This document shows positions 33,460 through 52,986 of a DNA stretch of 64,000 nt, in pieces. Source of the stretch: Chordicoccus furentiruminis (GTDB taxonomy: Bacteria > Bacillota > Clostridia > Lachnospirales > Lachnospiraceae); assembly GCF_019355395.1 (NCBI RefSeq), contig NZ_CP048829.1, positions 1,364,001-1,428,000 of the forward strand. The letters run 5' to 3'. The notes under the pieces were generated by a model. It did no database searches. It was not told the DNA's origin and worked only from the letters and a program-made list of their open reading frames with translations. Position 1 is the stretch's first letter. Every line of letters begins with the position of its first letter. The translations under genes and the position numbers were made by a program.

Positions 33460-33500
33460 ACAGAGTAAACACAGAATTGAGTATCTTTTAGGAATGTCTG

Positions 33501-33525
33501 AAAAGCCTTGATTTTACTGGATTTC
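33501..33525. other. Putative attL core
   Basis: AAAAGCCTTGATTT followed by TACTGGATTTC resembles the right-end AAAACCCTTGATTT followed by ATAAGGATTCC. The exactly shared block is CCTTGATTT, with GGATT conserved four bases later. It lies 124 bp from the 3' end of the integrase gene, the usual position. Confidence 0.5.
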
Positions 33526-33570
33526 TTGTGTTTCGCCGACCCCTACTTTTTAGTATCATTGAGCGAAAAC

Positions 33571-33611
33571 AAGCGACTTTTGATAAATTTAAGCGACAAA
33601 CAAGCGACAAA
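33571..33611. repeat. Integrase arm-type repeats, left end
   Basis: AAGCGAC occurs at 33571, 33591 and 33602. The segment 33587-33611 (25 bp, ending AAGCGACAAA) is identical to 57434-57458 at the other end, in the same orientation. Such short direct repeats inside both ends behave as arm-binding sites for tyrosine integrases. Confidence 0.75.
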
Positions 33612-33615
33612 TTTT

Positions 33616-33640
33616 AACCGCCCGGAGCGGTTCTTTTTTT
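33616..33640 (+). terminator. Terminator at left end of element
   Basis: A short stem AACCGC/GCGGTT (33616-33621 with 33627-33632) is followed by seven T on the plus strand. It would stop chromosomal transcription from entering the integrase gene antisense. Confidence 0.65.
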
Positions 33641-33648
33641 GCCCTTTT

Positions 33649-35013
33649 TTAGTTCGTCTTGCGGAACAGCTTCATGTCAATAGCCTGCATTGCCCTTGCT
33701 TCACTTTCCGCGAAAACGTGGCTGTATGTGTCAAGCGTCGTTTTCGTTGTGCTATGCCCTAACCTGTCGGCAATCACGCGGGCGGCTATATCGGAGTTAA
33801 TGAGCAATGAAGCGTGTGTGTGCCGCATCGTGTGCAAGTGTATGTCTTGCGGCAAGTCTGTTCCTTTGATAACCCGTTTCAGCTTTTGATTGATATTCCC
33901 GCCGAGGTAGAAGCCGCCGGAATTGTTCGTGAATACCAGTTCCGCGTTTTTCCACGTCCCGCCGGACTGCAACCGCCGCTTTGCCTGTTCTGTCTTGTGG
34001 CGTTTCAGCAAGTCAATGATGTATTCCGGCAAGACAATTCGCCGTGTGCTGTCCTCTGTTTTCGGTTCCTGCCTGATATACACCCCGTCAACCCTGACAA
34101 GCGTATGACGTATAAACATCATGCCTGTATCGAGGTTTATATCTTCCCAATAGAGCGCGGACAATTCGCCCGCCCGCATTCCTGACGCTATCAGCAAATT
34201 GATAATGACTTCAAACTGAAAATCGTCTTGTGCTGAAAGAATGTCTAACAGTTCCCGGCATTGTTCTTCATTCAGATATGCGGCGGGGGCTGTATCGACT
34301 TTAGGCGGCGTGGCAAGCTTGCACGGGTTCCGGCGCATGATTTCTTTCTTGACCGCCGCCGTGAATATGGCGGACAGGTTCAATTTCAGTTTGTTTGTAG
34401 AAGCCCCGGACAATCCCCGCTTTTCTGTCATATCGTCAAATGCCTTGTTTAACGGCATCCCGATTGCCGCCGCTATCTTTTCGGCGTGGTCACGTCCCAT
34501 TGTCTTGCCCTGCAAGGCGTTATATATGGCGGAACGGCTGACACCTGCTTTGTCTGCAAGTTCCTGACGCTTGAAGCCGTCAAGCAATGCCCTGTCTTTC
34601 AGCTTGAACGACTGTTCCATATTGCCGGATTTCTGCAATTCTGCAAAAAGGCTGTCGAGCATGGGCGCGGTAATGTTCTTTAGCTTTTCACGCCCTAACA
34701 CCGGGATAATGTGGTCATAAACGCCCTTGCGGTAGTTTACAAGCACGTTCGGCTTTAAGGTTTGCGGCGCAACCGTGGAATAGTACCATTCTGCCAATTC
34801 TGAAAGCGTCCTGTTTTCATCAAGGGCGACATAGCCCCGGATTTTATCTTCCCACGTTGCCGCGAACGCCTTTGCCAACTTTTCCGCTTTCCCCGGCGTT
34901 ACACCGTCCGGCGGGCGGAACGTCGTTGTTTTCTTGCGCTGCTTCCCGCTTTCATCATAACCCATGTATGCGGTTATGGTGTAAGTGTCGCCGCGCTTCC
35001 TGATACTTGCCAT
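33649..35013 (-). CDS. int: Tyrosine integrase with embedded helix-turn-helix
   Basis: In this 454-residue integrase, an AP2-like arm-binding N-terminus (MASIRKRGDTYTITAYMGYDESGKQRKKTTTF) and a SAM-like core-binding domain precede the catalytic domain. The catalytic residues are Arg in SGMRAGEL, His-x-x-Arg in HTMRHTHASLL, His in RLGHST and Tyr in TLDTYSHV. It is unusual that residues of about 145-195 form an inserted XRE-like helix-turn-helix (LDGFKRQELADKAGVSRSAIYNALQGKTMGRDHAEKIAAAIG) within the core-binding region, adding about 50 residues. Its 3' end faces attL. It drives site-specific integration and excision of the element. Confidence 0.95.
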   Translation of the reverse strand: MASIRKRGDTYTITAYMGYDESGKQRKKTTTFRPPDGVTPGKAEKLAKAFAATWEDKIRGYVALDENRTLSELAEWYYSTVAPQTLKPNVLVNYRKGVYDHIIPVLGREKLKNITAPMLDSLFAELQKSGNMEQSFKLKDRALLDGFKRQELADKAGVSRSAIYNALQGKTMGRDHAEKIAAAIGMPLNKAFDDMTEKRGLSGASTNKLKLNLSAIFTAAVKKEIMRRNPCKLATPPKVDTAPAAYLNEEQCRELLDILSAQDDFQFEVIINLLIASGMRAGELSALYWEDINLDTGMMFIRHTLVRVDGVYIRQEPKTEDSTRRIVLPEYIIDLLKRHKTEQAKRRLQSGGTWKNAELVFTNNSGGFYLGGNINQKLKRVIKGTDLPQDIHLHTMRHTHASLLINSDIAARVIADRLGHSTTKTTLDTYSHVFAESEARAMQAIDMKLFRKTN

Positions 35014-35027
35014 AAAACCACCCTTTC

Positions 35028-35573
35028 TTATTGTATATTCATATTTGCCCGCATGAAGTCAAGCAAATACGTTTCCATGTACTTTGCAGCTTTCCATTCG
35101 CAGAATTCGCTTTCATTCTCTGTGTCGCCGTCTGCTGCTTCAAGCTGCCGTTTCCTGCCGTACCATGTCGCCGCCTGTTCCAATGCAAGGTAAAAGTCTT
35201 TATCCCCTAACAGGCGATCAAGCAGGGGCAGCATATAGGGAGCATCTTCAAAATAACCGTCTTTTATCAGCTTCATGTTTTCGACTGTCCGTTCCGACAG
35301 GCCGAGCATTTCACGGACGGGAATATCTTCAAGAATGGTTCCTGTAATAAGATAATCCGTCGTCACATTGAAGTATTCCGCGATCTTCAACAGCTTGTCC
35401 ACGTTGGGCTGTGTTTCCCCCGTCGTATAAAGGGAAAGGGTTTGCGGGCGAACGTTCACAGCTTCAGCAAGTTCTTTCTGTGTCGTTCCGTGCTGTTCCA
35501 TCAATTCACGCAACGTCGCCGCAAAATGGGAATTGTATAGTTCGATAGATGAACCTTTTCTTGTTTTCGGCAT
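35028..35573 (-). CDS. CI-like XRE repressor of the element
   Basis: This 181-residue protein has an N-terminal helix-turn-helix (LRELMEQHGTTQKELAEAVNVRPQTLSLYTTGETQPN) and a helical C-terminal region without a LexA-type peptidase motif, so it is likely derepressed by an inducer protein and not by RecA cleavage, as in PICIs. The start 35573 has AAAGGAAAAAG upstream; the open frame extends to 35705 across the promoter region. It is divergent from xis, and inverted repeats with TCAAG/CTTGA half sites lie between them. Confidence 0.88.
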   Translation of the reverse strand: MPKTRKGSSIELYNSHFAATLRELMEQHGTTQKELAEAVNVRPQTLSLYTTGETQPNVDKLLKIAEYFNVTTDYLITGTILEDIPVREMLGLSERTVENMKLIKDGYFEDAPYMLPLLDRLLGDKDFYLALEQAATWYGRKRQLEAADGDTENESEFCEWKAAKYMETYLLDFMRANMNIQ

Positions 35574-35622
35574 TTTCTTTTTCCTTTCAAATGACGCTTT
35601 TCTTGAACATATTAAAAGTGAT

Positions 35623-35660
35623 TCAAGGAAACTTGACTTAGCGGGCGAACCTGCTATAAT
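35623..35660 (+). promoter_or_regulatory. Early promoter of xis-primase with repressor operator
   Basis: TTGACT (35633-35638) and a perfect TATAAT (35655-35660) are separated by 16 bp. A palindrome TCAAG-gaaa-CTTGA (35623-35636) overlaps the -35. Further TCAAG half sites lie at 35689-35693 and 35702-35706. These fit operators for the divergent CI-like repressor. Confidence 0.65.
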
Positions 35661-35738
35661 GCAATTATAGACAGGGGAACCGCCTTTGTCAAGGAAAACT
35701 ATCAAGAAAAACGAATCTTAATGAAAGGGGGCGCGACC

Positions 35739-35927
35739 GTGGAAAAGCCCGCATTGACCATAAAGGAAACCGCAAAAGAATTCCAGTTCCCGGAATACGC
35801 AATCAGAACACTTGTGAAGCGCGGGGCGTTCCCCGTCATTCAAGTGGGAAACCGCTGCTATATCACACGGGAAATCTTTGCAGACTACATCAAGAAAGGG
35901 GGCGAAACCTTTGCTGCTTCACGTTGA
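35739..35927 (+). CDS. Excisionase/AlpA-like DNA-binding protein
   Basis: This 62-residue protein (GTG start) reads MEKPALTIKETAKEFQFPEYAIRTLVKRGAFPVIQVGNRCYITREIFADYIKKG, a Tn916 Xis/MerR-like winged helix. GAAAGGGGGCGCGACC places the ribosome site seven bases before GTG 35739; an ATG at 35721 is possible but has no site. It probably directs excision with the integrase and may also activate the early operon. It overlaps the primase start by 17 bp. Confidence 0.85.
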   Translation: MEKPALTIKETAKEFQFPEYAIRTLVKRGAFPVIQVGNRCYITREIFADYIKKGGETFAASR

Positions 35928-38262
35928 CAGATACAAATTCAATATCAAGCCGGAACGCGGCGAAATCGGCGGCATAAAGTCCCGGTTCACCAAATCGGCA
36001 AGTATTAAGGATATGAACGTCAAGCAGATTGCCGCCGCCCTGACAGCCGGAAAGACCATTCAGCCGGGTGTATGTCCGTTTTCGGAGCGCAGCCGCGCAG
36101 CCGGGAAAAATGGAACCGTCAAGGAAGATTTCGCACGGCAGACAATCTTTCTTGACGACATAGACAACAAGCGCACGGACGTTCCCATTGAAACCCCGGC
36201 GCACGTTGCGGAAGTATTAGCCGCCCACAATCTGAAAGCGGCGTTCATGTATGACACTTTCAACAGCACCGACGAAAACGAGCGGTTCCGCGTTGCCGTC
36301 GTTTGCGGCGAGGAAATCACCGACAAAGACGAACGCGACAGAATACAGCGGGCTTTAATTGCCCTGTTCCCGCAATCTGACACAGATTGCACCAATGCCG
36401 ACAGAATCTTTTTCGGAACGGAAAAAGGCTTGATTGACGGTCATACCGATTATGAAGCGGTATGCAGTAAAGCCGATCTGTTAGCCCTTGCCGATGAAAT
36501 GCAGATACCGGAACACCCGGAACAGGAAGAAAAGGCGGCAAAAGAAGCACAGGCGGTGAAAGAATCCCCGTGGACAAAGTTCGGGGAAATCATACCGACC
36601 GGACAGCGGCACGGAACGCTTGTTAGCTTTGCGGCAACCGTCCTGACCAAATACGGCATTACCGAACAGGCGCATGAAATCTATATGCAGCGCGTCGCAC
36701 AATGCGAGGAACCGAAACCGGACGACGAAATAGAAAAGATATGGCGGGACGCCTGCAAGCATTATGAAAAGAATATTGCAACGAATCCGGCCTATCTGAC
36801 CCCGGCGGAATATGTCGCACAGGAATTTGCGCAGAGCGTTGAACCGACCGATTACACAGACGTAGGACAAGCACGGGTTTTCATGGCGCAGTATGGCGAC
36901 AGACTGAAATACAGCGCTGCAACAAAATGGCTTGTCTATGACGGCAAAGTATGGAACGAAAGCGAATTGCAGGCGCGGAAGCTGTCGCAGGAATTGACCG
37001 ACCGACAGTTAAAGGACGCACGGAAGCGGTTAAAAGCTGCCCGCGCTGCCGAGGACGCAGCCATTGAAGCAGGCGACGAGGAAGCCGAAAAAGACGCAAA
37101 GCAGGCAGTACGGGCGGCGAAAGAATACCGTTCCTTTGTACTTGACCGCCGGAAAACAAGCCGCATTGCGGCGACGTTGACAGAAGCGGAACCAATGGCT
37201 GAAATAGCCGTTTCCGAACTGGACAAAGACGGGTTCCTTTTGAACACACCCGCCGGAACCGTTGACCTGAAAACCGGGAAAATGCGCCCGCATGACCCGC
37301 AGGATTTCATAACCAAAATGACAGCGGTTTCCCCGTCGCTTGACGGTATGAACGAATGGCTTGCTTTCCTTGACCGCCTGACTTGCGGCGACCGGGAATT
37401 GCAGGATTATTTGCAGGTATGTTCCGGTATGGAAGCCGTCGGCAGCGTTTACGTTGAAAAGCTGACCGTGGCATACGGCAGGGGCGGCAACGGCAAAAGC
37501 ACGTTCTACAACGCAAAAGCGCGGGCAATGGGCGACTATTACGGCACACTGTCCGCCGAAACCCTGACCGTGAATTGCAGGAAGAACAAAAGCCCTGAAT
37601 ATGCAGAATTGCGCGGCAAGCGTCTTGTCATTGCGGCGGAACTGCAAGAGGGTATGCGCCTTGATACTGCCGTCGTCAAGCAGCTTTGCAGCACTGACCC
37701 CATACAGGCGGAAAAGAAGTATAAAGACCCGTTCAAATTCCTGCCATCGCACACAACGGTTCTTTATACAAATCACCTGCCGAAAGTGGGAACCAACGAC
37801 AGCGGCACATGGGACAGGCTTGTTGTGGTTCCGTTCAACGCCCGTTTCCGTGGTATGCAGGGTGAAATCCTGAATTACACGGAATACCTGCTTGAACATT
37901 GCGGCGGCGCTATCCTGTCATGGGTTATTGAGGGCGCACGGAAGTTCTATGCGGCAGGCTTTCATATTGAACAGCCGGAATGTGTCAAACGCGCTATCGC
38001 TGAATACCGCTTTGACAATGACTGGTTAAACGCCTTTTTGGAAGAATGTTGCGAGGTTTCCCCGGAACACACGCAACGGGCGGGCGATCTGTTCGACGCA
38101 TACCGGACGCATTGCACCGATACGCACGAATGGGCGCGGGGCGCAGGCGACTTCAAAGCAGCACTGACCGGGGCGGGCTTTAATTGGCGCAAGACAGCGG
38201 CAGGCGCGTTCTATTACGGGCTGAAATTAAAGTCTGACTTTGAACCAATCGTCCCGCTTTGA
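35911..38262 (+). CDS. Phage/PICI-type primase-helicase (D5/P4 family)
   Basis: The 783-residue replication protein is predicted from TTG 35911, whose upstream GAAAGGGGGCGAAACC copies the ribosome-site layout of xis. The N-terminal third looks like an archaeo-eukaryotic primase domain (IFLDDIDN, then NADRIFFGTE). A charged coiled coil follows at about residues 345-410. The C-terminal D5/P4-type SF3 helicase has Walker A GRGGNGKST near residue 523, AELQEG, and a PSHTTVLYTNHLP sensor segment. It would start and unwind replication of the excised element, with host polymerase doing synthesis. Confidence 0.88.
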   Translation: MLLHVDRYKFNIKPERGEIGGIKSRFTKSASIKDMNVKQIAAALTAGKTIQPGVCPFSERSRAAGKNGTVKEDFARQTIFLDDIDNKRTDVPIETPAHVAEVLAAHNLKAAFMYDTFNSTDENERFRVAVVCGEEITDKDERDRIQRALIALFPQSDTDCTNADRIFFGTEKGLIDGHTDYEAVCSKADLLALADEMQIPEHPEQEEKAAKEAQAVKESPWTKFGEIIPTGQRHGTLVSFAATVLTKYGITEQAHEIYMQRVAQCEEPKPDDEIEKIWRDACKHYEKNIATNPAYLTPAEYVAQEFAQSVEPTDYTDVGQARVFMAQYGDRLKYSAATKWLVYDGKVWNESELQARKLSQELTDRQLKDARKRLKAARAAEDAAIEAGDEEAEKDAKQAVRAAKEYRSFVLDRRKTSRIAATLTEAEPMAEIAVSELDKDGFLLNTPAGTVDLKTGKMRPHDPQDFITKMTAVSPSLDGMNEWLAFLDRLTCGDRELQDYLQVCSGMEAVGSVYVEKLTVAYGRGGNGKSTFYNAKARAMGDYYGTLSAETLTVNCRKNKSPEYAELRGKRLVIAAELQEGMRLDTAVVKQLCSTDPIQAEKKYKDPFKFLPSHTTVLYTNHLPKVGTNDSGTWDRLVVVPFNARFRGMQGEILNYTEYLLEHCGGAILSWVIEGARKFYAAGFHIEQPECVKRAIAEYRFDNDWLNAFLEECCEVSPEHTQRAGDLFDAYRTHCTDTHEWARGAGDFKAALTGAGFNWRKTAAGAFYYGLKLKSDFEPIVPL

Positions 38263-38282
38263 CCTTGCGGGCGTGTGTGAAT

Positions 38283-38363
38283 GACGGGCAATGACACCCA
38301 TGTACTAAAGTTTCAGATTTCAAAAATCGGTTTTCCCATAAGGAACTTTTGTGATTGCCCGTC
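38283..38363. repeat. Inverted repeat between primase and portal genes
   Basis: GACGGGCAAT (38283-38292) and ATTGCCCGTC (38354-38363) are perfect inverted repeats separated by 61 bp, with partial extra copies (GTCATTGCCTGTCAT) just after. The 216-bp gap 38263-38478 has no gene. It could be a replication origin, cos/pac-like site or transcript structure; none is proven. Confidence 0.6.
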
Positions 38364-38478
38364 ATTGCCTGTCATATCCCCCCGCCACACCGCAAGAAAG
38401 CAGGCGGCAGGGCAACGGTGCAGGGGCTTTCTTTTCCCCCGCAGAGAAAAAACAATTTCAGGAAAGGAGTTTCGACCA

Positions 38479-39609
38479 ATGAGCATTTTATCAAGCCTGT
38501 TCCGACCGAAACAGACCCCGCCGCAAGCCGTGATTGAGATAAACAACACGTTTTCCAGTTTCAGCGGCACAGCATACGGAAACGCAGCGTTCCGCGCAGC
38601 CGTGGACGCTATCGGCAGGCACACGGCAAAATTACAGGCGCACAGCGACGACAGCGGCCTTGAAAACCTGCTGAATACCGCCCCGAACGCTTATATGTCC
38701 GGGTATGACCTGCTGTATAAGACAGCGGCGGCATACTTTACAAATAACAATGCGTTCCTGCTGCTTGCCCGCGACGACACCGGGCGCATTACGGCAGTTT
38801 ATCCGATCACCCCGCAAAGCGTCGAGTTTGTCCCCGGCACGGACGGCGCATTATATCTTGACTGCCTGTTCCCGGACGGCAGACAGGTTTTGTTCCCCTA
38901 TGCCGATATTATCCATTTGCGGCGGCATTTCCTGACCAACGATCTGTTAGGCGACGGGAACGCGCCGTTGTTCCCGCTGCTTGATACGGCGGAAACGCTC
39001 AATCAAGGTATATCGGCAAGCGTGAAAAATGGAACAAGCATTCGCGGCGTTCTGAAATTTACGTCGCTTGTCAATCCGGCGCAGGTGAAAACGGAAAAGG
39101 AACAGTTCGTTTCCGACTATTTCAACCCGGCGAATTCCGGCGGCGTGGCGGCAACCGATCAACGCTTTGACTTTGTTCCTACCAATGTAACCCCGTACAG
39201 CATCCCGCAAGAACAGGTTGAAGCCGTGAACAAGCAGATATTCGACTATTTAGGCGTAAACGGGAAAATCATTTCCGGCAGCTATACGGAAAACGAATTC
39301 AGCGCGTTCTATGAAAGCGTAGTGGAACCGTTCGCCTTGCAGCTTTCGCAGGAATTCCACCTGAAAAGCGGCGCGGCGATCACGTTCACAGCGGAACGCA
39401 TGGAGTTTTCCAGCGCGGCAACGAAAATCAAGCTGCTGCATGAAGCCGCTCCGTTAGGGCTTTTGACCGTTAATGAAGCCCGCCGCATTTTGGCATTACC
39501 GCCCGTCGAGGACGGCGACAGGCGTTTGCAATCCCTGAACTATGTTTCCGCTGAAAAAGCGGACGCATACCAACTTGAAGAAAGCGAGGTAAACACCGAT
39601 GAAGCATGA
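38479..39609 (+). CDS. HK97-family portal protein
   Basis: This 376-residue portal protein has the start MSILSSLFRPKQTPP and the HK97 portal features VDAIGRHTAKL, AYFTNNNAFLLL, IHLRRHFLTNDLLGDGNAPLFPL and the C-terminal FSAFYESVVEPFALQLSQEF. It forms the dodecameric DNA gate at one capsid vertex. GGAAAGGAG eleven bases before ATG 38479 sets the start; the frame continues upstream to 38281 through the inverted repeat. Its stop overlaps the protease-capsid gene. Confidence 0.92.
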   Translation: MSILSSLFRPKQTPPQAVIEINNTFSSFSGTAYGNAAFRAAVDAIGRHTAKLQAHSDDSGLENLLNTAPNAYMSGYDLLYKTAAAYFTNNNAFLLLARDDTGRITAVYPITPQSVEFVPGTDGALYLDCLFPDGRQVLFPYADIIHLRRHFLTNDLLGDGNAPLFPLLDTAETLNQGISASVKNGTSIRGVLKFTSLVNPAQVKTEKEQFVSDYFNPANSGGVAATDQRFDFVPTNVTPYSIPQEQVEAVNKQIFDYLGVNGKIISGSYTENEFSAFYESVVEPFALQLSQEFHLKSGAAITFTAERMEFSSAATKIKLLHEAAPLGLLTVNEARRILALPPVEDGDRRLQSLNYVSAEKADAYQLEESEVNTDEA

Positions 39610-41086
39610 AACACAGACCCGTTGTTATGAAGTCCGGGCAGCGGACAAGCCCCTGACCCTGACCGGCGTTGCCGTGGTATTCAATCAGCCCGCCGATTTA
39701 GGCAGCATCAAAGAGGTTATCGCCCCGGACGCATTGCGCGGGCTTGACCTGAACGACATTGTATTGATTACCAATCACGACGGCGGACAGATACCCCTTG
39801 CGAGAAGCCCGAAAACCCTTTCCCTGACCGTCACAGAACAGGGGCTTGAAATGTCGGCGGAACTGCCGGACACGGAACAGGCGCGGGCGGTATATGAAGC
39901 CGTCAAGCGGGGCGACCTGTCGCAAATGTCCTTTGCGTTCGATATAGGCGCGGCGGACTATGACGAGCAGACGCAGACCCGCACAATTACCCAAATCAGC
40001 AAAGTTTATGAAATCAGTATCGTAAACTATGCGGCGTACACTCAAACCCATGTAGAAGCGCGAAAAGCGCAGGAGGAGGAAAAAGCTATGTTCAATCCCA
40101 TTACCGCAAGCCTTGAAAAAGGCAGCACCGCAACCGACACCCACAACACCCCGGAATACCGCACGGCGTTCTATAAGACCCTTATGGGCAAGGAACTGAC
40201 CGACGCGGAAAGCCGCGCCTATGAAGCCGCGCAGGCGGAGAAACGCGCCGACGCTTTCAACACGCTTTCCAGTTCCGCCGCCGTCGTTCCTACCACAACC
40301 CTGAATGAAGTTGTGAAGCAGGCGCGGGGCGTGAACGGCTTGTTTGATGAAATCCGCCTGTTCTCTGTCCCGAACAATCTTTCCGTTCCCGTCGGAACCC
40401 CCGGCGACGCTGCAAGCTGGCACACCGAGGGCGCAGCCGTGGAGCGCAAGGACGTGACAACCGCCGCCGTCACCTTTACCGGGCGGGAGCTTATCAAGGT
40501 TATGTCCATGTCCGCCGCCGTAAAGCGCATGGATATTTCCGCGTTTGAGCGTTATATCACGGACGAACTGAAAGCAAGCATCGCGGACGCTATCGGCGCG
40601 GCTATCGTTTCCGGCACGGGCAGTGGACAGCCCACGGGCATTCTGTCCGGCGTGACGTGGAACAACAAAAACCGCATTCAGACCGCAAGCCTGACCGCCG
40701 ACAACCTGCTTTCCGCTATCGCCCTGTTGCCCGCCGGGTATGCAGCCGGGGCAAAGTTCGCAATGTCCACGGCAACCCTGTTCGGCACGGTTTACCCGCT
40801 GAAAGACGGGGACGGGCGTTATTTCTTCACCGACCCGGAGCGCGGCGGCGTCCGTCGCCTGTTCGGTTTTGAAATCGTGCTTGACGACAATATCCCCGCC
40901 GGAACTATCCTGTTCGGCAATTTCCGCTATTACGGCGTGAATATCCCGCAGGGCGTTGCGGTAGAGGTTAGCAGGGAAAGCGGCTTTACAAGCGGACTGA
41001 TTGACTACAGGGCGCTTTGTATCGCGGACGGCAAGCCCATTGTACCGGGCGCGTTCGTCAAGGTTGAGGTACAGGCGGCGGGCTAA
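39599..41086 (+). CDS. Fused prohead protease and HK97-type major capsid protein
   Basis: In this 495-residue fusion, residues 1-155 form an S78-type prohead protease (GVAVVFNQPADLGSIKEVIAPDAL, catalytic His in ITNHDGGQ, Ser in LSQMSFAF, then YEISIVNYAAY). Residues 164-495 form an HK97-fold capsid protein (SSSAAVVPTTTLNEVV, WHTEGAAVERKDV, TGILSG, FGFEIVLDDNIPAGTILFGNF). GGAGGAGG followed by an ATG at 40088 (residue 164) lies exactly at the domain boundary, so capsid protein could also be made alone. It overlaps the portal stop by 11 bp. Confidence 0.93.
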   Translation: MKHETQTRCYEVRAADKPLTLTGVAVVFNQPADLGSIKEVIAPDALRGLDLNDIVLITNHDGGQIPLARSPKTLSLTVTEQGLEMSAELPDTEQARAVYEAVKRGDLSQMSFAFDIGAADYDEQTQTRTITQISKVYEISIVNYAAYTQTHVEARKAQEEEKAMFNPITASLEKGSTATDTHNTPEYRTAFYKTLMGKELTDAESRAYEAAQAEKRADAFNTLSSSAAVVPTTTLNEVVKQARGVNGLFDEIRLFSVPNNLSVPVGTPGDAASWHTEGAAVERKDVTTAAVTFTGRELIKVMSMSAAVKRMDISAFERYITDELKASIADAIGAAIVSGTGSGQPTGILSGVTWNNKNRIQTASLTADNLLSAIALLPAGYAAGAKFAMSTATLFGTVYPLKDGDGRYFFTDPERGGVRRLFGFEIVLDDNIPAGTILFGNFRYYGVNIPQGVAVEVSRESGFTSGLIDYRALCIADGKPIVPGAFVKVEVQAAG

Positions 41087-41122
41087 TCCCCGCCCCTGAC
41101 CCGGAAAGGCAGGCACACGGAT

Positions 41123-41398
41123 ATGATTTTCACGATTGAAGAAGCCCGCGACATTTTACGCATAGACGGCAGCGACAACGACGCAATCATTATTCCGCTT
41201 GTGTCTGCTATTCCGCCATACCTTGAAGCAACGACAGGTTACACCCCCGCCGACGGCAGCTTTTCACCCGTTGCGCGGACGGTGGGGCAATTCCTGTTGC
41301 AGCTATGGTATTACGGCGAGAATGCGGACACGGACAAGCTACAGCGCGTTATAGACTGCCTTTTGAAAGCGTTATCAGCGGAGCGCGGCACGGCATGA
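41123..41398 (+). CDS. Head-tail connector protein (gp6-like)
   Basis: A 91-residue protein reading MIFTIEEARDILRIDGSDNDAIIIPLVSAIPPYLEATTGY resembles gp6/HK97-type head-tail connectors, which form a ring under the portal. It follows the capsid gene by 36 bp and its stop overlaps the HNH start by four bases (ATGA), as in compact phage head modules. Confidence 0.85.
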   Translation: MIFTIEEARDILRIDGSDNDAIIIPLVSAIPPYLEATTGYTPADGSFSPVARTVGQFLLQLWYYGENADTDKLQRVIDCLLKALSAERGTA

Positions 41399-41682
41399 CA
41401 CAGCAAGAATTCTATCATTCAAGGGCATGGAAACGGCTTTCACGGGCGTTCCTGCTGTCAAGGAACTATATATGCGAGCGTTGCGGCAAGCCCGCTGAAA
41501 TCGCCCATCATAGAACCTACCTGACGGCGGAAAACCTGCTTGACCCGGATGTTTCCTTGAACCCCGCCAACCTTGAAGCCCTTTGCCGTGACTGTCACAA
41601 CGCGGAACATTTTGGACAGGGCGGCGCGACGGCGGCGGGGCTTGCCTTTGATGATAACGGAAATTTAGTGAAAGCGAGGTAA
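41395..41682 (+). CDS. HNH endonuclease
   Basis: This 95-residue protein has two zinc-binding Cys pairs (CERCG and CRDC) around the HNH core (EIAHHRTYLTAENLLDPDVSLNPANLEALCRDCHNAEH). HNH proteins beside terminase genes assist large terminase cutting at cos sites in HK97-like phages and cf-PICIs. The start at 41395 overlaps the connector stop. Confidence 0.93.
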   Translation: MTQQEFYHSRAWKRLSRAFLLSRNYICERCGKPAEIAHHRTYLTAENLLDPDVSLNPANLEALCRDCHNAEHFGQGGATAAGLAFDDNGNLVKAR

Positions 41683-41688
41683 ACGGCT

Positions 41689-41922
41689 ATGAATGACAGC
41701 TACAGCACAGAATTAAAGCAGGAAATCAAGTTCCTGTCCGATGAACTGGCGTTCCTGCAAGCGCAGATAAACACGGCGCGGAACGACAGCAACACGGCGG
41801 AATATACAAAACTAATGCGCACTTACCTGACGGTACAGAAACAGTATTTGAAGCTTTGCGCAGAACTGGAAAGCCTGACGGAAACAGAGGTTGACGAACT
41901 GGCGGCATTTAACGGAGCGTGA
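41689..41922 (+). CDS. Small coiled-coil protein before large terminase (possible small terminase)
   Basis: A 77-residue protein, MNDSYSTELKQEIKFLSDELAFLQAQINTARNDSNTAEYTKLMRTYLTVQKQYLKLCAELESLTE, is almost entirely helical. Its position directly between HNH and large terminase is the usual place of small terminase. It is short and lacks a clear helix-turn-helix, so it may be a truncated or unusual TerS or an accessory packaging factor. Confidence 0.65.
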   Translation: MNDSYSTELKQEIKFLSDELAFLQAQINTARNDSNTAEYTKLMRTYLTVQKQYLKLCAELESLTETEVDELAAFNGA

Positions 41923-41926
41923 AAGC

Positions 41927-43570
41927 ATGAACTATATCACGGAATATAACTGCAAACTACAAAGCGGCGAAATCACGGCATCCCGGCGCGTAAAGGCGGT
42001 ATATAGCCGCCTTGCGTCTGCCTGCCTTGACACGTCCGGGCAATATGTCTTTGACGAACAGCGGGCAAGCCGTCCTATCGCCTTTATAGAGCGTTTCTGC
42101 AAGCATTCTAAAGGCGAATGGGCGGGCAAGGGTATTTCCCTTGAACTGTTCCAAAAAGCCTATATACAAGCCCTGTACGGCTTTATAGACCGTGAAACTG
42201 GGTGCAGACAGTACAGGGAAAGCTTTTTCCTTGTGGGGCGTAAAAACGGCAAATCAACGCTTTTAGCGGGGCTTGCTCTGTATATGCTGACAAGCGACGG
42301 CGAGGGCGGCGCAGAGGTTTACAGCACGGCGACAAAATACGCGCAAGCCCGCCTGTTGTTCGATGAAGCCCACAACATGATAAAGCAATCCCCGGCATTG
42401 TCAAAGCATTTCCGCAAGCGCAAGAGCGATTTATACTATGAACCCACAATGTCAAAGTTTCAGCCCCTTGCCCGCAATTCTGACACGCTGGACGGCTTGA
42501 ACGCAAGCTTTGTTATCATGGACGAATTGCACGGCGTAAAAGACAGGAACCTTTATGAAGTCATGCGGCAGTCACAGAGCGCACGGCGGCAGCCGCTTAT
42601 GATTATGATAACGACCGCCGGAACCGTCCGGGAATGTATTTTTGATGATATGTACACCTATGCGGCAAGCGTGGCGGACGGGGCTATAGCTGACCCGCAT
42701 TTCCTGCCTATCCTTTATGAACTGGACGACCGCAGCGAATGGACGGATAAAACGGCATGGGCGAAAGCTAACCCGGCGTTAGGCAGTATAAAGAAGCTGG
42801 ACGACCTGACCGCGAAAGTGGAGCGGGCAAAGCAGAACCGCAACGAACTTTCCGGCGTTCTCTGCAAGGAATTCAACGTGCGGGAAACCGTCAAAACGGC
42901 GTGGCTTTCCTTTGACGACATCAATAACGAAACGTTATTCAGTTTAGAGGATTTCCGGGGCGCGTACTGTATCGGCGGCGTTGACCTGTCCATTACAACC
43001 GACCTGACCGCCGCAAGCCTGCTATTTATGAAGCGCGGCGACGATAAAAAGTATATCTGTCAAATGTACTGGCTACCCGCCGACAGGCTGGCGGAGCGTG
43101 TACAGCAAGACAAAATTCCTTATGACAAATGGTTTGACCGGGGCTTGTTACGGCTATGCGATGGGAACAGCATTAACTATTCCGATGTTACAGCGTGGTT
43201 TGTGGAAACCGTGAAGCAATACGACCTGTTCCCGGCATGGGTATATTACGACAGCTATTCCGCCAGGTACTTTGTCGAGGAAATGCAAATGCAGGGCTTT
43301 AACATGGTTCGCTGCATACAGGGCGCAAAAACGCTTTCCCTGCCTATGCAGATGTTAGGGGCGGACTTGCAGGCGCACAAAGTCATATACAATAATAATC
43401 CCGTTCTGAAATGGTGCTTGACGAACACGGGCATTCAGACGGACAGGAACGGCAATATAGTTCCCATCAAGAACCAATCGCCAAAACAGCGCATTGACGG
43501 CACGGCGGCCTTGCTTGACTGCTATGTGGGGCTATATGAGCATTTGGGCGAATATACTACAGCAATATAA
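41927..43570 (+). CDS. Terminase large subunit
   Basis: The 547-residue protein has an ATPase Walker A FLVGRKNGKST (about residue 110), Walker B FVIMDELHG and coupling TTAGT, then a nuclease domain with GGVDLSITTDLTAA and KQRIDGTAALLDCY. It packages DNA into preformed heads and cuts it. The start at 41927 follows GGAGCG; an ATG 12 codons upstream overlaps the previous gene. The HK97-like TerL with adjacent HNH suggests cos-type packaging. Confidence 0.95.
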   Translation: MNYITEYNCKLQSGEITASRRVKAVYSRLASACLDTSGQYVFDEQRASRPIAFIERFCKHSKGEWAGKGISLELFQKAYIQALYGFIDRETGCRQYRESFFLVGRKNGKSTLLAGLALYMLTSDGEGGAEVYSTATKYAQARLLFDEAHNMIKQSPALSKHFRKRKSDLYYEPTMSKFQPLARNSDTLDGLNASFVIMDELHGVKDRNLYEVMRQSQSARRQPLMIMITTAGTVRECIFDDMYTYAASVADGAIADPHFLPILYELDDRSEWTDKTAWAKANPALGSIKKLDDLTAKVERAKQNRNELSGVLCKEFNVRETVKTAWLSFDDINNETLFSLEDFRGAYCIGGVDLSITTDLTAASLLFMKRGDDKKYICQMYWLPADRLAERVQQDKIPYDKWFDRGLLRLCDGNSINYSDVTAWFVETVKQYDLFPAWVYYDSYSARYFVEEMQMQGFNMVRCIQGAKTLSLPMQMLGADLQAHKVIYNNNPVLKWCLTNTGIQTDRNGNIVPIKNQSPKQRIDGTAALLDCYVGLYEHLGEYTTAI

Positions 43571-43582
43571 GGGGGAACCGCT

Positions 43583-43888
43583 ATGAAGCTGAAAGACAAG
43601 CGTATAGAGATACAGGAAAGCCGTTATACAACGGACAAATACGGCAACCATAAAAAGGAACTTGTCACGATTGCGACCGTGTGGGCGTATTTTCGGCAGC
43701 TTTCCGCAAATGAGATATACCGGGTAACGACGCAGACGGAAGAAAAGGTTTTGTTCCAAATCGGCTATAGAAACGACATAACCACGGCGAACACGATTGT
43801 TTACCGGGGCAAGACCTACAACATTACCCGGATAGATGTATTTGAGGGCTACAAAAGTGACCTTGTGCTGTACTGCAAGACGGAATAA
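43583..43888 (+). CDS. Phage head closure/head-tail joining protein
   Basis: This 101-residue protein reading MKLKDKRIEIQESRYTTDKYGNHKKELVTIATVWAYFRQLSANEIY, with YRGKTYNITRIDVFEGYKSDLVLYC, is typical of SPP1 gp16/HK97 gp10-like head-closure proteins that plug the filled capsid. It is the last structural gene; no tail tube, tape measure or lysis gene follows. A serine recombinase on the opposite strand comes next. Confidence 0.88.
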   Translation: MKLKDKRIEIQESRYTTDKYGNHKKELVTIATVWAYFRQLSANEIYRVTTQTEEKVLFQIGYRNDITTANTIVYRGKTYNITRIDVFEGYKSDLVLYCKTE

Positions 43889-43945
43889 AGCAAGGGCGGA
43901 GCATTTGTTCCCCCCTCACAGGGGTAACAAGTGATTCCTGGGATA

Positions 43946-45919
<1,974 letters not shown>

Positions 45920-46054
45920 AGGCTCTCCTTGTGTTATTTGGATCGAGTTTGCCCACACGCCGCCTGTGGGGGCCTCTGCCGGAGGGGACGGGCAGGGCGC
46001 TGCCCGGTGCGGAAGAACGCCGCACGGTGCGGCACAGGGCGAACGGGCGGGTGT

Positions 46055-46432
46055 TTACTGCCCGTCCTTGTGGCTCAGATCATGGTATGCGTTTATGTGG
46101 TAGGCCTGTTCGAGAATGTGTTCCAGCAGGAAACGGATTCTGTCCGCCGCCTCCCGGTCCAGTTCCTTTGCGCGGGGATTCCGCAGAATCTGGCGGATAT
46201 TGGAGTCGATCTTGTTGACTTCCTCGTGAAGCCGAAACCTGATCCGGCTGGGTCTTTCCACGATCTCGCTCTCTGCAATGAGCTTGCGGAAATAGGTGGT
46301 GACCGGCAGGCGGGTCAGTTCCCGATAGCGTTCCAGCCTTTGAAATTGTTCCTCTGTCATCCGGACAGAGATGCTTTTGCTGTTGTCCCGCAGTTTCCCT
46401 CTGGGAAGCGGCTTTTTGCGCTTACGGCGCAT
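46055..46432 (-). CDS. MobC-like mobilization protein, copy A
   Basis: This 125-residue protein begins with a very basic MRRKRKKPLPRGKLRDN, then a ribbon-helix-helix (SKSISVRMTEEQFQRLERYRELTRLPVTTYFRKLIAES) and a helical C-terminus. It fits relaxosome accessory MobC proteins that bind oriT. GGAGGG precedes ATG 46432, and its 5' end overlaps the previous gene by 11 bp. No relaxase gene lies nearby. Confidence 0.8.
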   Translation of the reverse strand: MRRKRKKPLPRGKLRDNSKSISVRMTEEQFQRLERYRELTRLPVTTYFRKLIAESEIVERPSRIRFRLHEEVNKIDSNIRQILRNPRAKELDREAADRIRFLLEHILEQAYHINAYHDLSHKDGQ

Positions 46433-46751
46433 GGGTGAATCCCTCCTTCCTGACCTCGTATGCTGCCTGGGCAATGTCCTTCAGACAGTCGAGTGCTTGC
46501 TGGAGCCCCTCTGCCGTGCCATATCCGCTGTTGAAGGCACGAGCCACGGTGTTGATCTCCCGCCCCTTCTGATTGAGCAGGCAGAGAAAGTCCGACATGA
46601 TGCCGTTCCGACTGATGATGGGACGATTGCCGGCGAGCTGCTCCATAAGCCATGCGTTGGCAGACAGCCCTGCCGCCCTGCTTCGTTCCATGAGCCGGTT
46701 GTATTCTTTGGCACTCATGCGGACGCAGGTCCGATGTGTCTGTTTGTTCAT
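46422..46751 (-). CDS. MobC-like mobilization protein, copy B
   Basis: This 109-residue protein, MNKQTHRTCVRMSAKEYNRLMERSRAAGLSANAWLMEQLAG, has a ribbon-helix-helix N-terminus and a C-terminal helical part (INTVARAFNSGYGTAEGLQQALDCLKDIAQAAYEV) typical of MobC with the N-x-x-A-x-x-x-N-type motif. GGAGG lies before ATG 46751. Together with copy A it forms an oriT-binding pair for a relaxase supplied in trans. Confidence 0.78.
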   Translation of the reverse strand: MNKQTHRTCVRMSAKEYNRLMERSRAAGLSANAWLMEQLAGNRPIISRNGIMSDFLCLLNQKGREINTVARAFNSGYGTAEGLQQALDCLKDIAQAAYEVRKEGFTHAP

Positions 46752-46891
46752 AAACCACCTCCAGACCGCTTCCGGCAATGTTGCCGAGAGCGGTTTTCTG
46801 TTTTTTCAGATACCCCCTCACTACCCCTCCCGAAAAAACAGCATGGTGAATAACAAAAAATCCAAAAATTTTGCAAAAAAATTGAAATCCA

Positions 46892-46944
46892 GGGTGTGCA
46901 ATAGACACCCTCGCCGTCCAATCAAGGGTGTCTTATTGACACCC
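46892..46944. repeat. GGGTGTC/GACACCC inverted repeats, group 1
   Basis: Two short palindromes lie upstream of the mob genes: GGGTGT/ACACCC (46892-46910) and GGGTGTC/GACACCC (46926-46944). The same half site recurs at 47766-47841. They could be operators for the MobC-like proteins or iteron-like sites. Confidence 0.65.
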
Positions 46945-47029
46945 AAAGCGAAAAAATCGGCAGACAGACCCTTATAAAGTCTATCTGCCGATGGTAACAT
47001 ACCACAAATCTAAGAAGGAGGCTCGGAAC

Positions 47030-47266
47030 ATGATGTATGCTGTTTTATCATTGGGGCTGGCGCTGCTGGGCGGGATCGTCCGTCTGGCACAGGTGCTACG
47101 GTTGTCTGCGCCGCTGCTGTACGGTGCACTGGTAATCACGGTATTCCGCCCGTGGTATCTGGCCCATACCGCTCTGGCGGACGGCATTTTCCTTGTGCTG
47201 GTGGGTCTTGCGGCGCTGTCATGGGTGGTGACGCTGATTCGAGCGGTGCGGGAGACGATCTGGTAA
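47030..47266 (+). CDS. Small two-to-three-span membrane protein
   Basis: This 78-residue protein, MMYAVLSLGLALLGGIVRLAQVLRLSAPLLYGALVITVFRPWYLAHTALADGIFLVLVGLAALSWVVTLI, is almost wholly hydrophobic with about three spans. AGAAGGAGG precedes the first of two ATGs at 47030. It is divergent from the mob genes. I do not recognise a family; small proteins like this accompany Firmicute mobilizable elements. Its stop lies at the start of the first large palindrome. Confidence 0.7.
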   Translation: MMYAVLSLGLALLGGIVRLAQVLRLSAPLLYGALVITVFRPWYLAHTALADGIFLVLVGLAALSWVVTLIRAVRETIW

Positions 47267-47443
47267 AGTAAGGGTTGGCAAGATTGCCAACCCTTACTTT
47301 CAGACAACCTTGTCAAAAAGTCTGACCGGGTTCGGTGAATTCACCGAACCCGGTTTTCAGCGTCTACCGCTTTTGACAATGTTGTCTGAAGCGCTTTAGG
47401 GCAGTCCGCTGTGATCGGGTTCGGCCATATTGCCGAACCCGAT
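47265..47443. repeat. Cluster of long perfect palindromes
   Basis: Three palindromes follow each other. The first has 17-bp arms (47265-47281 with 47284-47300) and a 2-base loop. The second is a 28-bp perfect palindrome around GAATTC (47326-47353), itself framed by 18-bp arms with one mismatch (47301-47318 with 47371-47388). The third has 12-bp arms ATCGGGTTCGGC/GCCGAACCCGAT (47414-47425 with 47432-47443) followed by TTTT. Confidence 0.9.
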
Positions 47444-47504
47444 TTTTACACTCACTTTCCGGCAATGCTGCCGAGAAGTTCCCGCCCGCGGGCGGCATGG
47501 GGGA

Positions 47505-47584
47505 CTGGGGTTTACCCCAGCAAGCAGTATTTTGACATCAAAATGCGATGCTTGCAGCCCTCGCCACCTGGGGGCGGCGAGGGC
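47505..47584. other. Candidate oriT-like hairpin region
   Basis: CTGGGG/CCCCAG (47505-47520) is followed by an imperfect inverted repeat GCAAGCAGTATTTTG and CAAAATGCGATGCTTGC (47520-47555), then by GCCCTCGCC/GGCGAGGGC-type arms (47557-47584). Inverted repeats next to mobC genes are the normal setting of oriT in mobilizable transposons. The nic site is not identified. No gene is credible in 47267-48260. Confidence 0.45.
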
Positions 47585-47671
47585 TTGCCCTACCACCAGC
47601 GCGGCTTTTTCAAGCGGTAAATTGATTAGAATAATGGATACTGACATGTCCGTTATCTGCCCAAAGAAAAA

Positions 47672-47701
47672 GCCCAATGCGTATTAATGTACGCATTGGG
47701 C
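47672..47701 (-). terminator. Perfect 11-bp-arm hairpin with T run
   Basis: GCCCAATGCGT and ACGCATTGGGC (47672-47682 with 47691-47701) are followed on the minus strand by TTTTTCTTT. It is a terminator candidate for leftward transcription from the ABC operon. Confidence 0.65.
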
Positions 47702-47765
47702 ATCTCATCGTTCCTATTCCTTGCACATTATAAGCATTAATGCCGAAAGCAGGGGGTTATGTACT

Positions 47766-47841
47766 GACACCCTGTTCTGATCTTTAACCTCGCATTTGCA
47801 GGATTTTATCCGGACAGGGTGTCTGTGTTGACACCCTGTCC
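47766..47841. repeat. ACAGGGTGTC/GACACCCTGT repeats, group 2
   Basis: A single GACACCCTGT lies at 47766-47775. A perfect 12-bp-arm palindrome GGACAGGGTGTC/GACACCCTGTCC with a 6-bp spacer lies at 47812-47841. The half site matches the palindromes at 46892-46944. Confidence 0.8.
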
Positions 47842-48260
47842 TTACCACTTCCGGTCAGTTGCTTGAGCCTATTGCGACTCCCACCGTGCCGTTCTCTCCA
47901 ATCCGGTTCCTGACAGGCAACCCTGCTCGGCGCTGTGTCGTATGGCTTCCCTTGGCCCGCTCCCTCAAGCTGAAATCATGGCAGGCTTTCCCGAAAAAGT
48001 ATCGGATTGGACGGTCATTCACTTTTACCCCAGACACGAAACATGCCTGGGGTACAGCGAAAAGCCTATAAATGATATCCAATCTCTTTCGAGAAAGCCT
48101 ATAAAGTGAGAGACAGTATTATACAATAACTTCCAATTAAGTTGCTGTGTTGCCAGTGTAACTCTGGCAAGAAGCCTTGTCAAGGGGGAATTTAGAGCAA
48201 TTCTCAAAATAAACAACAACCAGTGTAATAAACCAAATGAAGGATAGCCTGACCGTTTAT

Positions 48261-49046
48261 TCAAATCTCTCTGTTCGTCCAATATTTTTGAGCCGCAACG
48301 ACAGAGCATAGGACGATTACAACGCTGATTAGCAGGAACAAAACAGAAAATCCGTCCCTTGCTACCGCATAAACATCAAAATACTTTAAGGGGGTCAAAT
48401 AGTACAGAGCCGGAGATTCCCAATAGTCAGCGATTACATAAAGCCCATAAAACCCCAGCAGCATTCCTGCCCCTAAACGGGCGGCGTTTTTAAAGGTTTT
48501 GACAAGGCTGGAAATCAGAAGCCCTATGGCGAACAGCACCACCTCTGTCAAAAACATTCCGATTGTCGTTGTCACAGCCGCTCCCGGCTGCTCCAGCCCT
48601 CCCAAGGGCAGAATCGCGGTAACATAGCCACACAGTCCGCTGAATGCCGTGAGGATCAGCAGGTTACACACACCGGCCAGCGTTTTTGCGGCAACGATTT
48701 TGCTCCGCCTGATCGGTTTTGTAAACAAGTATTCCGTCGTTCCATATACGGTTTCTTTTGCCACACAAGAAACTCCGAGGTAGATTGCATAGCAGTTATT
48801 TAATATGGCAACCCAAAAATAAATACAGCCATACCAGCCCAGGGCAGAGGTCAATTCTTCTCCCACGCCAAACATGATCGTCAGGATTTTGGGAAAGGTG
48901 TTGATTAGTTCAGCCAGCTCACCCAAAGTCTCCCGCAGAGACAGATATTCAAAATAGGCAAATCCGCACAGGAGCAGAACAACTCCCATCCAGATTAACA
49001 GAAGTGTTCTTGATAAACGCATTTCCTTTTTTATCAAGGCTTTCAT
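48261..49046 (-). CDS. ABC-2-type exporter permease (downstream copy)
   Basis: This 261-residue membrane protein has six spans and the start MKALIKKEMRLSRTLLLIWMG. The cytoplasmic segment YGTTEYLFTKPIRRSKIVAAKTLAG is shared in form with the partner permease (HTAEYLFTKPCGRKRIYWGK). It is the last gene of an ABC operon, 11 bp after the partner permease. The pair resembles bacitracin/lantibiotic-type or Na+-type ABC-2 exporters; the substrate is unknown. Confidence 0.88.
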   Translation of the reverse strand: MKALIKKEMRLSRTLLLIWMGVVLLLCGFAYFEYLSLRETLGELAELINTFPKILTIMFGVGEELTSALGWYGCIYFWVAILNNCYAIYLGVSCVAKETVYGTTEYLFTKPIRRSKIVAAKTLAGVCNLLILTAFSGLCGYVTAILPLGGLEQPGAAVTTTIGMFLTEVVLFAIGLLISSLVKTFKNAARLGAGMLLGFYGLYVIADYWESPALYYLTPLKYFDVYAVARDGFSVLFLLISVVIVLCSVVAAQKYWTNREI

Positions 49047-49057
49047 TTTTTCACCCC

Positions 49058-49843
49058 CTATACCGCAATGTCCCGTTTTAGTGACCCTTTATATGAAAAA
49101 AGGAAGAAAGCTATTACCAGAATCAAATACCAGATCAGATAACTCCATTCATAAAATCCCGTTTCGTGGATCGTTGACGGATTAAAAAAGGAGAACGGAG
49201 ACAGAAAACTGATCGGGGCGTTTCCGATCGTTCTGGAAAAAGCAGTAATGCAGTATGCCACAAATACACTTAACCCCGCGGTCAACAGCGGAAGCCGGTT
49301 GTTTGGCCTGAGCGTTCCCCAAAACAGCCCTAGCGCACCGAAAAACAGCGTAATCAAGGAAAAAGAGATTGCCAATAGAAGGAACTCCGCCAATGGAAAA
49401 CCCGACTGAAACAGGGCCAGCGTTAAAAATGAGGCAAGCAAATAGGCGATCCCCACGATGCCGATTCCAATGAGCAGGCATCCTGTTTTGCCCCAATAAA
49501 TCCTTTTTCGTCCGCATGGTTTCGTAAACAAATATTCTGCGGTATGCTCCGTACATTCTTTTGTTTGCAGTGCCAGGCCGAGGTGCATCCCGAAAATTCC
49601 GCCAGCAATCATAAAAAACGCATTCAGGAAAGAGTACATCCCCAAAGGCTCCATCAATAGAGCAAGGGAGACCCCCACCGTCTCAAAAAATCCACCCTGC
49701 GTAAAATTTTCCGATAAGGTTTCCGGCGTATCAATCATGCCGTAATAAACCGGCGTCATACAAAAGATACAGACCGCCAGCGCCACAGCCCAAATCAGAA
49801 TGTATTTTCGATTCCGTTTCCACTCATATCGAAAGACAACCAT
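49058..49843 (-). CDS. ABC-2-type exporter permease (upstream copy)
   Basis: A 261-residue six-span permease, MVVFRYEWKRNRKYILIWAVALAVCIF, followed by a large extracytoplasmic loop and the EYLFTKPCGRKRIYWGK cytoplasmic motif. AATAGGAGGGGCC precedes ATG 49843; the frame extends upstream into the ATPase gene. It starts 13 bp after the ATPase stop. With the second permease and the ATPase it forms one exporter. Confidence 0.88.
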   Translation of the reverse strand: MVVFRYEWKRNRKYILIWAVALAVCIFCMTPVYYGMIDTPETLSENFTQGGFFETVGVSLALLMEPLGMYSFLNAFFMIAGGIFGMHLGLALQTKECTEHTAEYLFTKPCGRKRIYWGKTGCLLIGIGIVGIAYLLASFLTLALFQSGFPLAEFLLLAISFSLITLFFGALGLFWGTLRPNNRLPLLTAGLSVFVAYCITAFSRTIGNAPISFLSPFSFFNPSTIHETGFYEWSYLIWYLILVIAFFLFSYKGSLKRDIAV

Positions 49844-49856
49844 ATCCTGGCCCCTC

Positions 49857-50738: not shown

Positions 50739-51048
50739 TGCAGATATTCCTCCTTATAAAAATTTCGTTTCAGCATCTTCAAAATGCTATCCAGCTCAGA
50801 CATGATGCCGTCATAGTCGATTCCGTTTTCACAGCGGGATACCATCCCATCCCCCAATAGCAGCAGCATTTGGAAGACCAGCGCCGCGTCCTCAGAATGC
50901 TTAAACTTGATACGATCCTCCTCATGCAGGACCAATACCTCCGTAAATTGCCTTCCCTCTGTTATCGCGGAGCCCAACGCATCTTTCAAATCCGAAGCGT
51001 TCTCCGTTGCGGCGCTGGTGATGAATGCCGCAACATAGGGATGTTTTT

Positions 51049-52648: not shown

Positions 52649-52660
52649 TAGCTAATTTAA

Positions 52661-52950: not shown

Positions 52951-52986
52951 CCATCAAAAGCAGCACTGCCATATCGGAAATTATGC

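Follow-up and report, generated by a model that had tools for sequence, protein, structure and literature searches.

The window analysed in this study is a stretch of 64,000 nucleotides of the Chordicoccus furentiruminis genome (contig NZ_CP048829.1, positions 1,364,001 to 1,428,000), and it holds a mobile element that begins with a tyrosine integrase gene and carries an early module followed by phage head and packaging genes (Table 1). Throughout 33649-43888 the genes are open frames with families matched by Pfam, PHROGs and NCBIfam. The integrase, CI-like repressor, xis, D5-type primase and head and packaging genes listed in a preliminary description of this DNA were all confirmed in place and in family and, as it had also claimed for the 10-kb set, no tail or lysis family was matched by the proteins of the element in these three collections. 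An integrase, an AlpA-type protein and a primase are traits of phage-inducible chromosomal islands (PICIs). In NCBIfam the primase, protease, capsid and head closure proteins scored over the cut-off, the integrase, repressor, portal, Ad1 and HNH proteins under it only, and no match was found there for the Xis-like protein or TerL. The portal probably starts at 38479 (by eye), while the TerL start in relatives corresponds to residue 12-13 of the window frame, at about 41927.

Table 1. Features of the element, its ends and the insertion nested in it (window positions)
Feature	Position	Strand	Evidence or remark
Left end	33461-33612		L025 homology starts at 33461; attL-like core near 33470-33480
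Left-end paired arm motif AAGCGACAAACAAGCGACA	~33592-33610
Tyrosine integrase	33649-35013	-	PF00589, PF14659, PF01381 (Pfam); seven-sequence alignment; model
CI/Stl-like HTH repressor	35028-35705	-	PF01381; PHROG transcriptional regulators; diverges from genes on its right
Xis/AlpA-like HTH_17 protein (Tn916-Xis-like)	35721-35927	+	PF12728 over cut-off; phrog_16129 excisionase
P4-family primase-helicase (D5_N, DUF5906)	35878-38262	+	Pfam, PHROGs, TIGR01613
HK97-type portal	38281-39609	+	PF04860; TIGR01537 under cut-off
S78 prohead protease fused to HK97 major capsid	39599-41086	+	PF04586+PF05065; TIGR01543+TIGR01554
Ad1 head-tail connector	41123-41398	+	phrog_40 weak (E 4.8e-5); TIGR01560 under cut-off; constant place in relatives
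HNH endonuclease	41305-41682	+	PF01844; phrog_144
77-aa two-helix protein, TerS position	41689-41922	+	Alignment; model pLDDT 88.9
TerL	41891-43570	+	PF03354+PF20441; phrog_9; tree
Head closure/head completion protein	43583-43888	+	PF05521 (Pfam, without PHROG match); TIGR01563
Foreign insertion, 12,106 bp	43905-56010		Absent from L025 and L024, both continuous over the junction
Insert serine recombinase, beside insert left end	43965-45746	-	Pfam
Insert NikA-like genes	46055-46474, 46422-46778	-, -	Pfam
Insert transporter, transposase and regulator genes	48-56 kb		Named by eye
Cargo gene 1, 251 aa	56040-56795	-	Same place in L025; weak DUF3139; membrane-anchored or lipoprotein-like by eye
Cargo gene 2, 158 aa	56804-57280	-	Same place in L025
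Right end	57432-57521		Paired arm motif ~57437-57455, hairpin; L025 homology stops at 57521

The core-binding region of the integrase (about residues 141-190) holds a Cro/C1-type helix-turn-helix (HTH) domain (HTH_3, E 3.1e-5), in a stretch that could be aligned across seven sequences and at which a structure model of moderate confidence (mean pLDDT 76, pTM 0.54) places helices. Among the scanned relatives, designated here by locus numbers, the domain was called in L131 and L043 and not in L025 at a cut-off of E 0.001; it may play a part in repression or site choice. The 77-aa protein in the position of the small terminase subunit (TerS), modelled as a plain two-helix hairpin, was rejected as a P27-type TerS, given an hhalign probability of 2.6 against proteins of sister lineages which we take to be P27-like.

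The element was found to continue past 43888. In the viral contig L025 (12,426 bp), positions 126-10778 are collinear with 33461-43904 of the window and positions 10778-12302 with 56011-57521, at 79-84% identity; an end at 43888 was therefore rejected, and the element runs on through two minus-strand genes (56040-57280) to a right end near 57.5 kb. Since L025 and L024 are both uninterrupted across the junction, 43905-56010 is regarded as an insertion, and its genes, at 43.9-56 kb, were on the same ground rejected as satellite cargo. The insertion site is a hairpin between the head closure gene and the cargo, split in the window and whole in L025 and L024. As this collinearity sets the inserted DNA apart, the native element measures about 11.9 kb, and the interrupted window copy 24 kb. 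The preliminary description had taken the stretch ending at 43888 as the whole element, which holds for the gene set of 33649-43888 but misses the right end at 57521, the cargo genes and the nested insert; of its size guesses, 20-25 kb fits the interrupted copy and 10-14 kb the native one. The insert looks like a mobilizable element because of its serine recombinase and two NikA-like genes. Three records from human-gut viromes match the left part of the insert (80-91%), so that it appears to circulate elsewhere too. GC contents were 50.1% for the satellite, 50.6% for the insert, 56.1% for the left flank and 61.1% for the right.

The window element shares with L025, L038, L043, L109, L111, L115 and L131 a paired motif, about AAGCGACAAnnAAGCGACA, found inside each of its two ends, and the relatives with paired motifs at both ends are 12-15 kb long. 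From outer core to outer core, L025 spans 12.2 kb, L109 13.8 kb, L111 13.4 kb and L115 13.3 kb.

Relatives were gathered by TerL searches, taking the best 80 of 165 relatives in viral contigs and the best 80 of 267 in species genomes, and by a capsid search giving 20 loci; the gene maps cover 188 loci, including a few contigs fetched twice under two locus ids. Two gene orders were recognized in these maps, namely a satellite order of portal, protease/capsid, Ad1, HNH, (small protein), TerL and head closure protein, to which the window belongs, and a phage order of (HNH), TerL, portal, protease and capsid. Labelled TerL rows numbered 156 (window and four added records included), comprising 105 in satellite order (104 fetched loci and the window), 50 in phage order, three of which are added phage records, and one Lacticaseibacillus record. 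Labelling left out 23 of the 188 loci with no readable order, as well as 14 that lacked a TerL frame of more than 480 aa or were the window itself, and some labels rest on Ad1 or capsid before and the head closure protein after TerL, with no portal on the contig.

An 85% identity filter reduced the 156 rows to 78. The TerL tree of these rows, for which a quick method was used and which contains long outlying branches, puts the 49 rows in satellite order on one side of a branch with SH-aLRT 98, as against 28 phage-order rows. The window TerL pairs with that of Anaeromassilibacillus senegalensis An867 (92% identity), whereas its best match in the phage collection reaches 56% (an unannotated 22.5-kb record) and named phages about 49%. 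The comparison of gene order and TerL with phages that had been suggested earlier thus places the satellite-order TerLs in one clade apart, and the close grouping with a complete phage that had been named as the contrary outcome was not seen. Carriers of the satellite order include Clostridia, Bacilli (Cohnella, Priestia, Niallia and Alicyclobacillus), Staphylococcus, Macrococcoides and one Desulfovibrio metagenome-assembled genome (MAG). It was also observed that the head-gene order of the window occurs in Macrococcoides caseolyticum, Staphylococcus borealis, S. pragensis and S. simulans (L134, L135, L136 and L138), L134 and L135 falling inside the satellite TerL clade.

Tail genes were sought with 17 tail-protein queries in loci that extend 6 kb or more 3' of TerL. 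All 34 such phage-order loci gave matches, a count that includes self-matches of control loci L159, L164, L172 and L177 from which some queries had been taken, versus one of 33 satellite-order loci. The tail genes of that one locus, L032, belong to a neighbouring phage: its right flank opens with a 5'-truncated portal gene (PF04860, E 8.5e-105), after which come capsid and tape-measure matches (L032:6256-13547), and because of this the L032 satellite, whose left end is off the contig, probably lies inside the phage that it abuts. Between both ends of L025, L043, L109, L115 and L131 the gene lists hold the core set and a cargo slot only, so that tail or lysis genes in a contiguous relative, which the preliminary description had considered as a sign of a deleted prophage, were not encountered. 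In PHROG scans 3' of TerL (198 of 219 proteins and 25 of 27 loci), which hit 136 and 106 families, none of the 25 families hit most often was a tape-measure or major tail family. The positive control, 45 of 78 proteins from five of eight phage-order loci, some minus-strand frames being omitted by hand, gave many tape-measure, Dit and major-tail families. A tape-measure search in five viral records, run without a positive control, found nothing. Lysis queries (GH25 and holin, E 1e-6) matched only L109, L117 and L037 among the satellite-order loci, and the matches of L109 and L037 are outside the satellite.

Taken as genes alone, the window element is in all likelihood a capsid-forming, cf-PICI-like phage satellite of a lineage in Clostridia and Bacilli. 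Gene content, gene order, the TerL clade and the tail counts argue for the clostridial capsid-forming satellite that the preliminary description had proposed. The uninterrupted L025, the paired end motifs, the restriction or viperin-like cargo of four relatives, the terminally repeated contigs described below, the tail-bearing prophages of the host and a 14.1-kb Lacticaseibacillus record point the same way. A Vibrio element classed among the capsid-forming PICIs (cf-PICIs) encodes capsid, protease, portal, head-tail adapter, closure, HNH and terminase proteins of its own and an Stl-like repressor, and no tail (PMC13230959); cf-PICIs average about 14 kb in another source, where PF12728 is counted as AlpA in the model for phage-inducible chromosomal minimalist islands (PICMIs) (PMC10803314). 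The window element resembles them in its integrase at one end, its bounded ends (33461 and 57521), its early module of repressor, AlpA-like protein and primase, its own capsid, protease, portal, connector (Ad1, weakly), HNH and TerL, and its size (native about 11.9 kb; relatives 12.2-13.8 kb). It differs in that its sub-lineage has a protease-capsid fusion and no recognisable TerS, and in that many of its relatives sit in serine recombinase genes. The cf-PICI-like label is used because the testable features, save TerS and kinship with published cf-PICIs, were found.

Two records from other hosts were also compared. Lacticaseibacillus JB1P3 (PV668529, L213, 14,135 bp) has an integrase, CI, HNH, TerL, portal, capsid and connector that match window proteins, a capsid long enough for a protease-capsid fusion and an annotated primase, but it differs in the order HNH-TerS-TerL-portal-capsid-connector, in its annotated TerS and in a primase without a match to that of the window. 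R23.1 (OP869847, L214, 14,518 bp), in which all genes are annotated as hypothetical, is alike in gene sizes and order, with the capsid alone matched. Both are filed as phages and look like capsid-forming satellites, and neither has annotated tail genes.

Several observations weigh against this interpretation of the window element. The cf-PICI-like label is given by gene content, and the published cf-PICI sequences are absent from the TerL tree, in which the TerL of JB1P3 sits on a very long branch far from the window clade. Positions guessed for a cf-PICI in E. coli O157:H7 Sakai turned out to be wrong. No TerS was recognisable in the sub-lineage of the window by profile comparison. The PHROG scans mentioned above also list endolysin families and, for two proteins, a baseplate hub; the matches that were traced come from LysM proteins (L119, L120 and L121) and from a GH25 lysozyme of L117, the latter beyond the L117 integrase, where the element end was not located. 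The attL core of the window copy (TTATACA) and its attR core (TTCATCG) differ as read, and a search for an empty site with both flanks in 42 genomes of the genus gave short diverged matches, never both on one contig. Finally, particles, induction and the use of helper tails are what we infer from knowledge of cf-PICIs, only the genes of the element having been read.

The preliminary description did not recognize the integration-site biology of the relatives. Seventeen distinct arm-bearing elements were viewed; with L043 (no flank) and L108 left out, and a 12-residue match in L027 scored as a miss, a serine recombinase gene is abutted by eight (L021, L025, L029, L030, L037, L109, L111 and L115) of 15 testable elements, the window being counted among the 15, and not by the other seven, namely the window, L023, L027, L038, L076, L113 and L131. 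The recombinase gene is on both sides of four of the eight (L025, L109, L111 and L115), and the left flank of L030 gave no match. When the flanks were joined in silico, an uninterrupted recombinase frame running through a FEKEN-type motif was obtained for L109, L115 and L111; those of L025 are shorter than the length required for joining.

The fullest case is that of Catenisphaera adipataccumulans (L109, G066; also L228 and L229), in which the satellite splits the serine integrase gene of a complete-looking siphoprophage. The interrupted gene is preceded by TerL, portal, protease, capsid, tape measure, Dit-like, tail, holin and GH25 endolysin genes (several by eye). Further serine recombinase frames were seen behind the split integrase gene of this prophage. 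In L037 (L037:7157-12954, L245), genes for another recombinase, a LysM/SH3 protein and a phage holin (PF05105) come after the abutting recombinase, with no tail match in the 16.5 kb beyond the recombinase genes. The neighbours of L111 resemble a mobilizable element and those of L115 a non-phage island (by eye), L131 interrupts a solute-binding-protein-like gene, and L116 lies at a tRNA 3' end (both by eye). Satellites abutting serine recombinase genes, in one case that of a complete-looking prophage, are new here; among the papers listed by searches of the open-licence literature, none was seen to describe capsid-forming satellites from Clostridia or satellites within serine recombinase genes. 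A broader proposal can be put forward only tentatively and is, on balance, rather doubtful: these capsid-forming satellites of Firmicutes, by way of their HTH-bearing integrase, might home to the FEKEN codons of large serine recombinase genes, both of rival elements and of tail-supplying prophages, disarming the integrase of a prospective helper until they excise and so coupling helper integration to satellite release, while being themselves invadable by a serine-recombinase element, as in the window.

Two other types of satellite bear comparison with these sites. Helper-embedded PICIs (HE-PICIs) are satellites inside helper genes, with late-gene targets in lambda relatives and packaging by helper functions (PMC10111431). 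L032 (a portal gene, one end only) and L109 (a serine integrase gene) are likewise at or in genes of a possible helper prophage; the window lineage differs in encoding its own head, in having a serine recombinase gene as the commonest target seen, and in that the window copy is not embedded. Vibrio satellite-plasmids (cf-PISPs; PMC13230959) are resembled by the terminally repeated contigs L095, L099 and L100 in head genes without a tail, and by L100 in a ParA, but these three are of a lineage other than the Vibrio one, and the window element has an integrase. The three contigs (13645, 14108 and 13973 bp, respectively) have 123-127-bp terminal repeats and head and packaging genes of the present family, arranged in the satellite order, with no tail match and no matched integrase; L100 holds a ParA-like (PF13614, L100:10525-11286) and a DnaB-like gene (L100:34-2100), similar genes being seen by eye in L095 and L099.

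In the 3.27-Mb single-contig genome of its host, the window copy occupies an intergenic position, flanked by a 77-aa ORF and by a gene named TusA-like by eye, and is not inside a prophage gene. A tRNA target was rejected, the sole window tRNA being at 1026-1113. TerL, tape measure and major tail genes are present in two prophages of this genome, one of which also has Dit. Serine recombinase genes lie about 15 kb past one tape measure (2534302-2537192) and about 22 kb past the other (403950-407612), and may be prophage genes. The host serine recombinases keep the motif as FEKEN or FEKEA, and one shares the TTTTCCTTCTCGAAATA string with the rejoined L109 site. Possible helpers and unused sites of the usual type therefore appear to be present, given the two tail-bearing prophages and the motif-bearing recombinases. 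Each of the two prophages encodes a relative of the satellite head closure protein (E 3.5e-9 and 6.5e-6), a kinship that is compatible with, and would permit, a shared neck.

These circumstances bear on whether the window copy is a stranded member of a genuine satellite family that can no longer move by itself, a view that is compatible with the cf-PICI-like interpretation and for which the case is evenly poised. With the 12.1-kb insert the copy is twice as long, the cores of attL and attR are unlike, it sits off a recombinase gene though motif-bearing ones exist in the same genome, and no empty site was seen, none of the 42 genus genomes having both flanks on one contig. The mobility of the window copy is doubtful because of these unlike cores and missing paired flanks. 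However, its satellite genes are intact open frames, the insert may excise via its own recombinase, and integrases of the Tn916 type accept unlike cores.

A second alternative, that a complete siphophage prophage has lost its tail and lysis genes in this genome, is very improbable. HK97-type head genes are those of ordinary phage families, and the 12.1-kb insertion lies where late genes would follow. Yet the uninterrupted L025 leaves no room for a tail, since what comes after head closure is a pair of cargo genes and then the right end; a single TerL clade with this gene set spans Clostridia, Bacilli and staphylococci; and relatives with ends found have the paired end motifs and a length of 12-15 kb. 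A deleted prophage was thus rejected on L025 and on the tail counts. Least credible is a domesticated or gene transfer agent (GTA)-like head cluster packaging host DNA, since, although head and packaging genes do occur here without a tail and the capsids of an E. coli cf-PICI and of a GTA are reported to share one branch of a structure-based tree (PMC12846349), an element that moves itself is indicated by the integrase, repressor, primase, excisionase-like gene and paired end motifs, and the joined flanks are clean insertions in three relatives.

If the element is indeed a capsid-forming satellite, growth of a helper phage would lift the CI-like repressor, Int and Xis would excise the island, and the P4-type primase would replicate it. 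HNH and TerL would then cut the island DNA and package it into its own heads, to be capped by the Ad1 and head-closure proteins for a helper tail, and lysis of the cell by the helper would release the satellite. The host prophages with tail genes are candidate helpers. The window copy, at 24 kb, is about twice the native size and would therefore not be expected to be packaged as a unit unless the insert leaves.

Anti-phage cargo is usual in satellites, and the slot between head closure and the right end is occupied differently among the relatives. L131 carries an EcoRI-type methylase with a GmrSD/HNH nuclease, L043 a HaeII-type system and L115 a methylase accompanied by a nuclease of weak match. 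About 2.4 kb past its TerL, L116 has a viperin-like gene, the cargo position of which is assigned from gene order because no paired motif was found. The window cargo pair gave no informative match, cargo gene 2 having none in Pfam or PADLOC. In the protein of cargo gene 2 an RDILIH (Rx4H) stretch was seen by eye; Rx4H stretches are seen in HEPN nucleases.

The present analysis would extend head-making, tail-borrowing satellites to Clostridia, and provides a defined lineage, with ends and a cargo slot, in which tail hijacking is open to test. Among its named carriers are Anaeromassilibacillus senegalensis An867 and Catenisphaera adipataccumulans DSM 25799, the islands of which lack the 12.1-kb insert. 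The targeting of serine integrase genes, if true as a rule, would give the satellite direct control of its helper's choice between lysis and lysogeny.

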